Notes under the pieces: model-generated
Seen by the model: only the letters and a program-made list of their open reading frames with translations
Databases searched by the model: none
Told to the model about the DNA's origin: nothing
Made by a program: the position numbers and the translations under genes
Source of the DNA: Branchiostoma lanceolatum
Lineage: Eukaryota > Chordata > Leptocardii > Amphioxiformes > Branchiostomatidae
Direction: 5' to 3'
NCBI RefSeq assembly: GCF_035083965.1
Contig: NC_089722.1
Coordinates: forward strand, 25,607,081-25,671,080
Length of the DNA stretch: 64,000 nt
Shown here: positions 11,701 to 17,700 of the stretch, in pieces
How positions within the stretch are numbered: position 1 is the first letter of the stretch
Layout of the letters: every line of letters begins with the position of its first letter

Positions 11701-14700
11701 GGTATGTTGAGCAATACCCTACATGTACATGTACTAAACTTTATGTGCTTTTTTCATGTTATCCAAACTTTATGTAACTCTGGTTATGTTTGATACTTAT
11801 GATGTACATTAAGTTATATATCTTTAGCTTTTTTTGTTACTGTTTGTTACAGATATGACCGTGTCATCTCAGCTTGTTCCCTACAAGCAGATATCGACAT
11901 CCTCCCTGAAGGAGACCAGACTGAGATTGGAGAGAGGGTAAGTCTGATCATGAGTGACATGTTTATTATCAAATCAAGTAATTTTCTCCAGTGTTCTTTT
12001 CCAACCTTACACTGGAATAACTGATGGTTCACTCTGCTCTCTAGACAAGAATTTATACCCTAGTTAAGTGTTGTATTTTCTCTGTTGAAAAGTAATTTCA
12101 TTTTTTTAAAGATAAAAATGTTGTTCCTCCTTGTCCCAGGGAATCTGGTTGACTCCAGGTCAGAAGAGACGTGTGAGTGTGGCCAGAGCCTTATACAACA
12201 GCTCTGACATCGTCATCTTGGTAGGTTCACAATATTATATATGTATGCAGAAATCATGAAAAGTTTTAGATTTTTCTGTTCTAATTATTGCTTAAGCCAA
12301 GGAGGTTAACCTCCTTGCTTAAGCCTACTGTCTTTATTATTTGTCTATCTATTCATTTATTTGTTTTCTGTCACATTCTAGATATTATTTTTGTAAGATT
12401 GCATCTGATATTGAAGTACAGTTTGATACAGCTTCTCTGCATTCTAATTTCTAGGACGACCCTCTGTCCTTCCTGGATGTACATGAGGGAAGTCACATGA
12501 TGCAGGAAGGCATTCTGGGTATGCTGCGGGAGGAGAACCGCACCATCGTCTTAGTAACCCACAAACTGGAGTATCTCAAAGAGGCAGACAATGTACACAT
12601 TTTGTTTCTCATTGGTTTTCCTATCAATAGACTGTGTAACAAAACTCTCACTGTCCAGGGCTTTTTGGAGCAATTCTATCTATATTCAACCAATAACAGG
12701 TTCTTGGCCTATACATGTACATTGTACATGTGACCGGCATGTTGTAAAATGCAGATTCCATCTGTATTTCTACTTTGTTATAACAAGAAGTCAGACAGAG
12801 CTAGAACTTGAGGTAAAGATCAAAATGCTGTTGAACTGCCTGTAAGACTGTCTCCTTGTCATTGATGCTTTCAGTTGTTTTCTGTATCAGGCATTAAAAA
12901 ATGCATCAGGTTCTGGTGTTTGATTTTGCAGATTTTGGTGATGCGAGATGGACATGTAACACACCAGGGTACGTTTAGTGAGATCACCACGGAGGACCCG
13001 TCCCTGTACCAGATGTGGAAGAACACCATCAGGTAAAGTCCTGTACTTGCTTGACTGATTGTTAAGGCCCTCTTTGCACCCACAACAGTAGATAATGTTA
13101 TGTCACATAAGTGTTGTGACCAACACCAGTTGTATCAACAACCAATCATTTATAGTTACTGTGCGATTTTTCAATGTTTGTTTTTTTAACTTGACAGTAC
13201 CCAGGCTCAACAGGAGGAGGAGGAGAGGAGGAAAGACCAGCGGGGCTTAGAGAAGAAGTATCTCCGTCGCCAGGCAACCAAGACAACCCACAAGGAGGAA
13301 GAACTGTCAGGTTAGAACTGTACATGTATTAATTAGTAGTAGTATTTAGTCTAAACAATTTGTTATTCAGCATATACTTCAGCTGACTGCCACAAGCTAT
13401 CTGTGAACACACCTTGATTTACTGGACATTTTCAGTACCTTAGCTATAAATATAATACCTGCTATGCATTAGTACTATGAATCTCTATCAAAGCACACAT
13501 GTTTGGTGTAGAGTCAATCATTATTTTTCCCCACCTGATTGTTCACTCTACATTTCACTATGATCATTCACTGTATCCTTTTTAGCATACATGTACTTTT
13601 ATGTACTAACCTTTCCATCTTGTGTCCCTTCATCAGAGGAACCTGTGCATCTGCCCAGTGTACCTAAACCAGAAATATTTGTTGGCAAGTCCAAAGCCAT
13701 TCTAGCCTCTACTACAGTTGTTTCCAGCCATTTTGTACATTTTATTTCAGCTTACTCTTAGGCTAGTTGTCTCTTTCTTTTCTATGCTTGCTTCTTTTGG
13801 CCTGTTGTTTTACATTTCTTGGTAAATGTTTCATCATTATCATTCTTTGTCCTCAGCAGACAAACAGGGCCACACCCATGAGTTGTATATTGGCAAGTTC
13901 CATATTCATCATGTACATGTATTCCTGTTATAGCATATTAAGGATTTTTAGAATTAAGGTCTTATGTACAGGTATATGTAGTTCAGTAAGTTTTAAAAGA
14001 ACAAGTACTTCTTATTCATGTCAGAAGAAAGCTTTAGTTGCCTGCTCCCAGAAGAGAGAGAAGAAAGGGATAAATATTTTCCCACATATTGTCAGAAGTC
14101 TATCGAGCAGTTCAGTAGCAAAGATCGCCCATTTTAAGATAGTATGTTTAGTTGTTTTTCACACCCCCACTGACAAATTCATGGATTAGTCTTCACTTAG
14201 TCTGGACTTTTTACTTGTTGTGAAAGCGTCTTGAGATAATAGAATAAGGCATGCTATCAAGAATGATGTGTAGATTTTGTAGGTTGAAGTCACTGCTGCC
14301 TTGGTAGATTAGCAGATTGCAGTAATTTATCAGCTGATAAATGTACAATAAGATAATTTTTATTAAAGTTTCAATTGCTTTTCTAGCGCGTATGATAATC
14401 ATGATACATTTCTTTGTTATATCTGCAGATGAACAGAAAAAAGTACATGATATCTACATTGGCAAGCTCATTATTTGTCTTAGTTGTGTATTTTCCATTC
14501 TTTCCGGCCAACATTTTGTGGAGTTGAAAAGTAGACTTGCCTACTTTTTCATTCTAACGTTTGTCTCCATTTCTTCACCTTCTTATCACATTGGTACTTT
14601 TGTATTCCTCTGATATCCACATCATTCACTCATTCACATACTAGATGACGACCACAAGGTCCACCATGATGTGGTTTCTATTGTGGAAGTCCCTGTGAAG

Positions 14701-17700
14701 AAGAAAGGCCAGGAGGACAAAGACTCTGGCAAAGGGTCTAGTATGTCATCTCAAGACCTCCTCAGTTCTCCAAGTACTGTTCTTGTAGCATATCCATGTT
14801 GGTCACTTGTATATGTCTTGTGTTTCAGCTGATTTCTCAACTAATCATGTCTTCTGTGCCATGTCTTAACTGTTCTGCACTTTTATATGCCCTCAGTACA
14901 GTTGCCAGGACTTTTAACCAAATGAAAGTCAGAGAGATGCTAGTCACATTTCACAGTTGTCTGAGATTTGTAAGGTGCACATATTTCATCATCCGCATCT
15001 CATCATCATTATCACCATTTGGCGGTCAGAAAGCAGTCAACTACAAATTATATTTTCTTGTAAAAACACATACTATTAGTATGATGATGGTAAAAAAAGT
15101 TGATGATTGTTACAGTAACTGTCAGTGTCAGTGACAAGATTCAAACTGCACTGCATGTAACTAGAGTCGTTTGTTCAACTGTGGTGTCTTTTGTATTATC
15201 CTATGAAACTACTGTCTGCAATTTGTCCCAATAAAGCTTTTTTTTCAGTAATGACTTTCTGACTGTAACTTTCTGTGTTTCAGTTGTCCTCTTCAACTAA
15301 TGATAGTATTCACATATCTTAATGTTGTTTTTGTTGTCTGTAGCAGGAGTTGAATAGTCTTTCATAATAAGACAATTTGTTGGAGATGCAGTGCAGTGTT
15401 CATTTGATGTTTGTTTTTTTGTTGTTCTTTTGTCATCATATGCTGTAACCCTTAAGCTTCTACTTGAGTCTGAAATTTGTGTCCCATCCTGAGATAGAAA
15501 ATTCTAGGCCAAAGGTTTATATTGGAACAAGCGTCATAATTCTTGACCAGTACTGCAAGGGGTTTTATGCCATAATCAGAATGTGTTGGAGTTTCTTAAC
15601 ACCCTCCAGATTAATTCTGGAGTTCCAGTTTAATTCTGGAGTGGCCTCCCAGATCTCAGCAACCTTACACCCTGATTGGCTAATATTGCTAACTAGAAGT
15701 AGAAATGCTGTAAGAAATACGTAGCAGCCATTGTTGACCCTCTGGGGATTAATCCAAATTTGCTTTTAAGTGTTCATAATCATGCAGAATTATGCATTAT
15801 GTTACAATGTTTAACTATGCATAATTATGCATAAACCTTGAACTGTATGCATAATTATGCATAATTATGAACACTTATGCAAATTTGGATTAAACCCCAG
15901 AGGGTCGGGAATGGCTGCTACATATTTCTTGTTACATCATTTCTACTTCAATTTAGTAATATTAGCCCATCAGGGTGTAAGGTTGCTGAGATCTGGGAGG
16001 CCACTCCAGAATTAAACTGGAACTCCAGAATTAAACTGGAGGGTGTTTTATAGCGCAACACTGCTTGCAATATTGAGACGTAGATATGACGCTAATAGTT
16101 GACGTAGTCTTTAACCTTCGTTTCCTCCATGCTTTCCTCTACTCCCCCACGCTACACTCTTCTGTCCACCCTCCACTGCTGTAGCCGCTGAAGGTAATTC
16201 ACTCAAAACCTATTGCCATATTGGTATTGGTATCCCAATATGGTTTTGCCCTGTCAAAACTGCGAGTAATGCTTTATAAACTAATCTTGTTATCTTCAAA
16301 TCTCACCCAGCTGTTTATTAGTGCTAATTTTTTCAATGTGTTTTTTTCCACAATCTGTTAAATTCTTATGGTATAACCTTGTTGGCTTATAGATAAAACT
16401 ATGTTCTTGTGCTGCTAACTATAGCAAACACACTTACTTAGATGGCTGCCATGATGACTGCTTTGCAATACAAGCTTTTACCGAGGCTAACTCTGCATAT
16501 TTAATTATAGCTGCTGCAAAATCAGTCTACTAGTCAGTTTGACCGTACAAAGACTAATTTGCTTCTAGTATGTTCCAGTTGTCACAGAAATGGAAAGTTC
16601 TTTGAAACTGCCTAAGGAGAGATACATGTAGCCCTTTCACTCTGGGACACTGGGATTATACAGTCATTATATCATATCATGCCACATTATCTAATTCATT
16701 GTATCAATACTATCATGTGGTGTCATTATACCATTATCCCATAACACCCATATATTTTGCTTTAACAAAAAATGTCATGTTTTGTACTTTGTTCATGTCA
16801 GTTTCTTCACTGATACATGTATTTGTTTCATGTGTAATAACTATGTCCTACATTATTGTATGTTTTATCTAAGTTGTGTCATTCATTATTACCTGGTATC
16901 ACTTTGTAGTGTGCTATTAGGTGGATTGCATGATCAACAATTCAAAAGACTTAGTACACAGTTCATATACATGTAACATCAAATATCATTGTTTTAGTGT
17001 GTACATCTTTAAAAGTATATCTATGATCAAAGACATGAAAAAAGTATATTTAGTCTGATTATTTAAATCAAAGCCAATGTCAATACATAGAATAATAACT
17101 ACACAGCAGTGGTCCCAGAATGAACCCCTGGGGAACCCCACCTTTTCATTTCAGAGGAAGCTGAGAAGCAGAAGATGGCAAAAGACCTGATGTCGGTGCC
17201 CATGTCTGCCTACTTGACTTACTTGTTGGCAGGCGGAGTGTTGTGGGTGGTCATCCTTCTACTGGTCAGCATTCTCAAGCACGGTGTGATGGTGGCAGGA
17301 GACTTTTGGCTGGCTGACTGGTCATCACTGTGGATGGATGGAACGGTACAATATCAAGATACCTATTGGTCAAGCCTGATTCATTGTGGCCTGGTATTTG
17401 AACCTATTTTAGCTCCTGAGTCTCTTCAGTCCTCTCCTCTACTTGCGGAAAGGACAGAAGAGACTATGGAGCTACATGTATAATAGGTTTGGATACCAGG
17501 TTAGATTCATTGTACTGTGTACAAGCATATGCTTCTTTTTCATCTGCTGATGATATTACTAAAGATTAAGGTACCATATTCTATTTACTAGATTCAATAT
17601 GTATCATTAAAACCTTTGTTGCACAGTGTCGTAACATTTGATGCTCCTCGTGGCCCCATTCCAAAAGTTAGGGGGTCAGATGGCATCGGAGCTGCTATGA

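Follow-up and report, generated by a model that had tools for sequence, protein, structure and literature searches.

The analysed window is a 64-kb stretch of Branchiostoma lanceolatum DNA (contig NC_089722.1, positions 25,607,081 to 25,671,080 of the forward strand), with 0 N and 39.5% G+C by base counts. On its plus strand, a gene at approximately 1641–24919 was readable as a series of exon cores with adjoining splice sites, and this gene is most likely a SUR gene (ABCC8/ABCC9-like). Four short exon-like segments, designated a, b, c, and d, all lie within one intron of about 3.8 kb (3.84 kb) of this gene, between the exons that encode NBD1 and the start of TMD2 (Table 1). Each of them is preceded by AG, is open, has phase 1-1, and has a length that is a multiple of three, and a, b, and c share the GC donor end TTG|GCAAG.

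When the eight NBD1-side exons were joined with 17155–17345 and 17885–18054, frame 0 contained no stop codons. The joined protein, including a, b, c, and the short form of d, was compared with solved chains by phmmer. Among the best 60 of 564 matches, SUR2B (7mit) and SUR1 gave E-values of 6.7e-99 and 5.9e-86, respectively, and the best non-SUR ABCC match gave 6.1e-78, the rest being weaker; within these 60, the NBD1-linker-TMD2 region was closer to SUR than to other ABCC proteins. In Pfam, ABC_tran (66.3 bits, cut-off 25) and AAA_21 (28.2, cut-off 27) were detected on the joined protein, and ABC_membrane was marginally under its cut-off (27.9 vs 28). The candidate exons from 1641 onward may encode a SUR-like TMD0. 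The NBD1 signature at 12140–12220 reads LTPGQ in the phmmer alignment, its SUR2B counterpart being LSGGQ. An 80-bp tandem repeat at 5248–5464 (2.7 copies, 90% matches) overlaps a SUR exon that ends at 5306, at its 3′ end and donor; the repeat seems to carry a second copy of the donor, and its unit is not a multiple of three.

Table 1. Candidate linker exons and flanking features of the SUR-like gene.
Feature	Position	Strand	Basis and remarks
Upstream flanking SUR exon (exon 23), ends in phase 1	13198..13310	+	Stop-free join; aligned to SUR2B
16-residue segment aligned with SUR2 R helix	13247..13294	+	phmmer alignment to 7mit
Candidate mini-exon a, 48 nt, 16 residues, GC donor	13637..13684	+	Acceptor score 7.3, 9/32 known sites lower; start resembles exon 24; codon usage not exon-like
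Candidate mini-exon b, 33 nt, 11 residues, GC donor	13860..13892	+	Second possible acceptor 3 nt before, giving exon start 13857
Candidate mini-exon c, 33 nt, 11 residues, GC donor	14429..14461	+	Splice signals, peptide likeness; codon usage not exon-like
Candidate exon d, short form, 96 nt, donor A|GTATGT	14645..14740	+	Weak acceptor and donor; 2.8% of intronic windows attain its codon-usage score
Candidate exon d, long form, 129 nt, donor A|GTACTG	14645..14773	+	Donor score under all 32 known donors
Downstream flanking exon (exon 24), TMD2 start	17155..17345	+	Stop-free join; phmmer alignment

The initial annotation, made by a model from the letters of this DNA, had proposed the four segments, and their coordinates, lengths, open frames, and phase 1-1 were verified in the sequence, as were the common ends of a–c and, for d, the pair of in-frame donors separated by 33 bases. 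Its claim that every combination joins without changing the frame also held, all junctions being in phase 1: any subset of a–d stays in frame, the frame imposes no exclusivity, and a, b, c, and short d joined give 70 residues. Since duplication of one symmetric exon would produce this neutrality anyway, it is not independent evidence. At 13857–13860, mini-exon b has a tandem acceptor, CAGCAG, that could add one Ala.

To assess the splice signals, 32 donors and 32 acceptors were hand-chosen beside exon cores for whose selection SUR1/SUR2 sequence served as a guide; these are GT and AG by construction, so that GT at all 32 listed donors is a result of selection. Ambiguous sites were omitted, including at a minimum two donors (exons at 6636 and 9479) and two acceptors (exons at 9479 and 18836), and some of the 31 control introns therefore hold an unlisted exon (e.g. 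9147–10940). On the plus strand of the window, TTGGCAAG occurred three times, each time as the end of a, b, or c; the minus strand contained five more. GGCAAG occurred at 26 sites (14 plus, 12 minus), and an in-phase acceptor scoring at least 7, sought 27–60 nt upstream, was found only at a, b, and c, whose scores were 7.3, 9.2, and 10.2, the best among the 23 others being 5.5. For a, b, and c, respectively, 1.17%, 0.31%, and 0.11% of the control intron positions (n = 11,357) had an in-phase acceptor in the same range as good as the best one here, the figure for b referring to the acceptor at 13857 and not to that at 13860. Ranked among intronic AGs, the acceptors of a, b, and c fell within the best 3.6%, 2.2%, and 0.5%, respectively. 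A first 17-position acceptor matrix, for which 32 sites are too few and in which the training sites score themselves, gave way to a pooled model of the pyrimidine tract. In the pooled model, b (13860) and c scored above 15/32 and 23/32 known acceptors (for a, see Table 1). With position +2 left out, the donors of a, b, and c exceeded 19/32, 19/32, and 7/32 known donors, respectively.

The initial annotation had described all four segments as alike. For the peptides, controls were peptides following intronic AGs. The b/c score of 32 was reached by none of 846 controls (maximum 19) and the c/d score of 20 by none of 776 (maximum 15). The scores for a/c (8, reached by 4/705) and a/b (5, 12/705) were marginal, and likeness failed for b/d (5, 44/776) and a/d (−3, 126/635). 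The alikeness thus stood for b/c and, less firmly, for c/d; it was marginal for a/b and a/c and did not stand for b/d and a/d. The b/c score was also above those of all 4753 null pairs formed from 98 splice-bounded 33-nt segments elsewhere (maximum 21). A further control with random pairs, in which 506/200,000 reached the 10-residue b/c score, was not relied on; its pairs were drawn with replacement from 454 peptides, with about 440 self-pairs expected among those 506. At the DNA level, b/c and b/d stood out from shuffles (reached by 6/300 and 21/300), and a/c (176/300), a/d (281/300), and a/b (288/300) were within them.

The 140-nt flanks of the segments showed no likeness: 12/12 comparisons were within shuffles, the lowest being 25/300 for b/d downstream, where the flank of d began at 14684, inside the longer forms of d. 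Because the flanking introns are not alike, any duplication would be old, and the splice signals and frames would have outlasted the flanks. In a comparison of exon starts (630 pairs of 36 starts), a and exon 24 formed the top pair (12/17), and c/d was tied second (10/17); none of 1055 intronic AGs reached 12 with the first 17 nt of a. Exon ends matched at 13/18 for a/b and b/c and 12/18 for a/c (a match of 13 arises in 0.1% of random pairs and one of 12 in 0.4%), although 8 of the 18 columns are TTGGCAAG, the basis on which the ends were picked. The ends of a, b, and c matched that of d at 7, 9, and 7 of 18. As its start resembles exon 24 and its end resembles b and c, a seems composite and may be a composite segment. 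The repeated exon duplication proposed initially is thus retained for b/c and perhaps for c/d but not for a, which has mainly the donor end in common with the others.

These data also bear on the alternative that the segments are real exons of separate origin, arising by exonisation or from copied exon pieces, such as the start of exon 24 copied into a. The peptide of a, which is not clearly like that of b or d, and its start, which fits exon 24 best, are consistent with this alternative, as are the dissimilar flanking introns and the lack of DNA likeness between c and d. It is nevertheless quite unlikely in our estimate, given the b/c and c/d peptide likeness, the equal length of b and c, and the donor ends common to a–c, even though the picking of the ends contributed to the latter. 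A fifth, decayed copy was considered near 15477–15525, where 18 nt gave a 15/18 match to the flank of a together with a TATATTGG end; it was rejected, as the score of the best local alignment between block a and the remainder of the intron was attained in 28/40 shuffled introns. The corresponding values for b, c, and d were 10/40, 3/40, and 36/40, and the best intron window for c starts at 16794.

Coding signals differed among the segments. Synonymous differences exceeded nonsynonymous ones for b/c (pS 0.63 vs pN 0.39) and c/d (0.64 vs 0.31), with about five synonymous sites in each comparison. In simulations of neutral change with equal numbers of differences, the likeness was kept in 293 (b to c), 131 (c to b), 180 (c to d), and 311 (d to c) of 40,000 runs, corresponding to 0.3–0.7% for b/c and 0.5–0.8% for c/d; only stop-free runs were used, and the gaps in the c/d alignment were chosen by the aligner. 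Codon usage was scored with a model built from the 710 codons of those exons, 18 out of 30, in which just one frame was open, and the real-exon windows were scored with their own training data. The score of b, like that of long d, was reached by 5.3% of intronic windows (for short d, see Table 1). At 11 codons, the 10th percentile of real-exon windows was 1.2 bits, compared with 1.9 for b and −4.2 for c; at 16 codons it was 4.1 bits, compared with −5.4 for a. G+C was 0.44 in a, 0.45 in b, and 0.49 in short d (48–49% for d), compared with 0.51 in exons and 0.36 in introns. Codon usage somewhat favours b and d, and does not favour a and c. Thus, d has the look of a partly coding segment whose splice sites are poor, and c that of a well-spliced segment whose codons are unremarkable.

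Placement of the array in the NBD1-TMD2 linker beside regulatory sequence, as initially suggested, was supported by the alignment with SUR2B, which runs through the R helix. According to passages of PMC10276813, the R helix of SUR2A (924–942) is wedged between the NBDs, with R930, L933, and Y938 being important; it is conserved in mammalian SUR2 but not in mammalian SUR1, and a SUR1-like 6-residue insertion in SUR2A relieves its inhibition. The ED domain (947–961), next in the chain, has been proposed as an autoinhibitory motif in passages of PMC9700523. In the lancelet protein, a 20-residue stretch starting from DQ was identical to SUR2B at 9/20 positions, with LEKKYLRR in place of SUR2 LERKTLRR. 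E929, K931, L933, and R935 are kept, and most residues aligned with R-helix contacts are retained; R930 is replaced by Lys and Y938 by Thr. This segment aligned without the SUR1-type 6-residue insertion, and the array begins five residues past it. No acidic run like EDEDEEEEEEEDEDD of the ED domain is encoded by a–d, whose acidic/basic counts were 3/1 (a), 2/1 (b), 3/2 (c), and 8/6 (short d); the mini-exons are therefore no replacement for the ED domain in kind. The R helix/ED domain of SUR2 and the R domains of CFTR and Ycf1p occupy the same location in the protein as the array.

Taken together, we slightly favour the reading in which the NBD1-TMD2 intron holds small symmetric (phase 1-1) linker exons, one of which would have been tandemly duplicated long ago to give b and c and perhaps the 5′ part of d; a, having the donor end common with b and c, may be composite. 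We infer that the mini-exons are probably included variably, each inclusion adding 11 to 43 residues to the tether from the R-helix-like segment to TMD2 without a change of frame. A longer and altered tether would change R-helix docking and NBD separation and hence the MgADP sensitivity of the KATP channel, the nucleotide-gated channel that SUR proteins make up with Kir6. Because the array follows the segment aligned with the R helix, it could tune R-helix inhibition.

Several results weigh against this reading. The SUR2A insertion lies inside the helix segment and the mini-exons lie after it, so that its gating effect is not directly transferable. In the pooled acceptor model, d was under all known acceptors (0/32 lower), and the earlier 17-position matrix ranked a, c, and d under all 32 known sites and b over 2/32; the outcome for a–c was thus model-dependent, and d was weak in both. 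With position +2 left out, the donors of short and long d exceeded 1/32 and 0/32 known donors. Mini-exon-like segments at loose thresholds were frequent, with a density of 2.46 per kb in other introns (35 in 14.2 kb); the array intron held 21 in 3.84 kb, a–d counted. Codon usage of a and c was intron-like (reached by 29.5% and 34.9% of intronic windows), short d scored 10.9 bits, under the real-exon 10th percentile of 13.3 (32 codons), and the G+C content of c was merely 27%. At the DNA level, c and d were not alike (161/300 shuffles reached their score). One of the 98 unrelated splice-bounded 33-nt segments equalled the score of c with b (32); this AG-bounded open segment at 38154–38186 (DKVNYTHQLFA, ending G|GC) is regarded as chance. 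When all six frames of the window were scanned irrespective of splice sites, one further stretch scored 33 with b. Because of these matches elsewhere, the b/c likeness is by itself no proof and counts jointly with the neighbourhood, the equal length, and the common donor. Finally, selector/docking RNA pairing, as would serve mutually exclusive choice, was not above shuffles: when two stretches of the intron were scanned at 12 nt for pairing with all four upstream flanks, the top scores were 40 and 41, each inside the range of its 12 shuffles. Longer or conserved pairings are compatible with this result, and not every cluster of mutually exclusive exons depends on such pairing.

Part of this evidence would fit an alternative in which only d is used as an exon, a–c being decayed or never used and their likeness being due to chance and a short common motif. 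The most exon-like codon usage is found in d, a and c do not look coding, candidate segments are frequent in introns, and a chance segment equals the match of c to b. We consider this alternative unlikely, since a good in-phase acceptor is present at only these 3 of 26 GGCAAG sites, with acceptors as highly ranked among intronic AGs as given above, and since the frames, acceptors, and donors of a–c are intact despite diverged synonymous sites (pS 0.63 for b/c).

Weak splice sites are more typical of variable exons, and the usual base at donor position −2 is A. According to passages of PMC2490688, GC donors make up less than 1% of donors and are enriched in alternatively spliced genes. The predicted donor G|GCAAG of a–c fits the GC-AG introns described there and is otherwise near the consensus; the differences are that here three occur in succession in one intron and that base −2 is T. 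Symmetric exons together with GC donors make alternative splicing of the linker plausible. If all four exons were real but constitutive, the linker would simply be long here, gaining 70 or 81 residues without any regulation of exon choice. The symmetric phase as a by-product of duplication would agree with this, as would the acceptors of a–c, which the pooled model places within the span of scores of this gene's known acceptors. GC donors at three neighbouring segments, GC donors being linked with alternative splicing in passages of PMC2490688, and the weak splice sites of d fit variable exons better and speak against a constitutive linker, and we give it a low probability.

A splice-set rheostat may be envisaged, though we regard it as very doubtful. 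In it, up to 24 linker forms (8 subsets of a–c, each with no d, short d, or long d) would alter the length and phosphorylatable content of the tether joining an ancestral R helix to TMD2, and tissues would set the MgADP sensitivity of KATP channels through mini-exon choice. The linker is likely disordered. The acidic-hydrophobic-Tyr motifs of b and c, HELYI and HDIYI, may resemble tyrosine-kinase sites; a has Phe instead (PEIFV).

Other elements were observed in the window. In the intron after d, a foldback element at 15598–16047, with 119-nt arms that are 94% complementary, nested inverted repeats, and TAATTATGCA repeats in its centre, looks like a MITE. A GIDE-family E3 ligase with a RING finger was found at 32257–33006 on the plus strand and a piece of a cytochrome P450 exon at 61201–61413; alongside these matches, 4 of 6 window pieces searched gave no match. 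A 26-bp tandem repeat with 17.1 copies occupies 63161–63596, and TACATGTA occurred 32 times vs about 2 expected from base composition. Rfam gave no match in the window at gathering thresholds.

Tandem homologous exons inside ABCC genes have been described for mrp, mrp-1, and ABCC9 as unrelated convergent events in passages of PMC9741552, and those of PMC6071210 describe a cluster of 8 exons in Drosophila MRP. Like the present array, as far as these passages describe them, Drosophila mrp and C. elegans mrp-1 have tandem exons in an ABCC gene; their exons are swapped one for another, whereas the candidate exons here are 33–48 nt (plus d), lie in the linker, and are not all alike. In mammalian ABCC9, splicing to alternative last exons (SUR2A/SUR2B) alters SUR regulation, as is predicted for the array, and passages of PMC10276813 indicate that the C-terminal 42 residues bear on R-helix release. 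The choice in mammalian ABCC9 concerns a C-terminal exon, in contrast to the linker array. Splicing inside the SUR2 NBD1-TMD2 linker was unmentioned in the literature passages on the R helix and ED domain. No published account of such an array was found among the papers listed from the open-licence PMC literature, judged partly by titles, and we make no claim that it is unpublished. One scan each of viral contigs (12 pattern matches) and genome contigs (151 pattern matches) revealed no relative, as might be anticipated for eukaryotic DNA in these collections.

In the ABCC family, the array would add a further independent instance of tandem exons, at a new site in a regulatory linker. The LEKKYLRR segment without the SUR1-type insertion is relevant to how old the R helix is; this helix may predate mammalian SUR2. 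If the favoured reading is true, the built-in inhibitor of the KATP channel would be tuned by splicing at the place where, in mammalian SUR2, the R helix and the acidic run are fixed.

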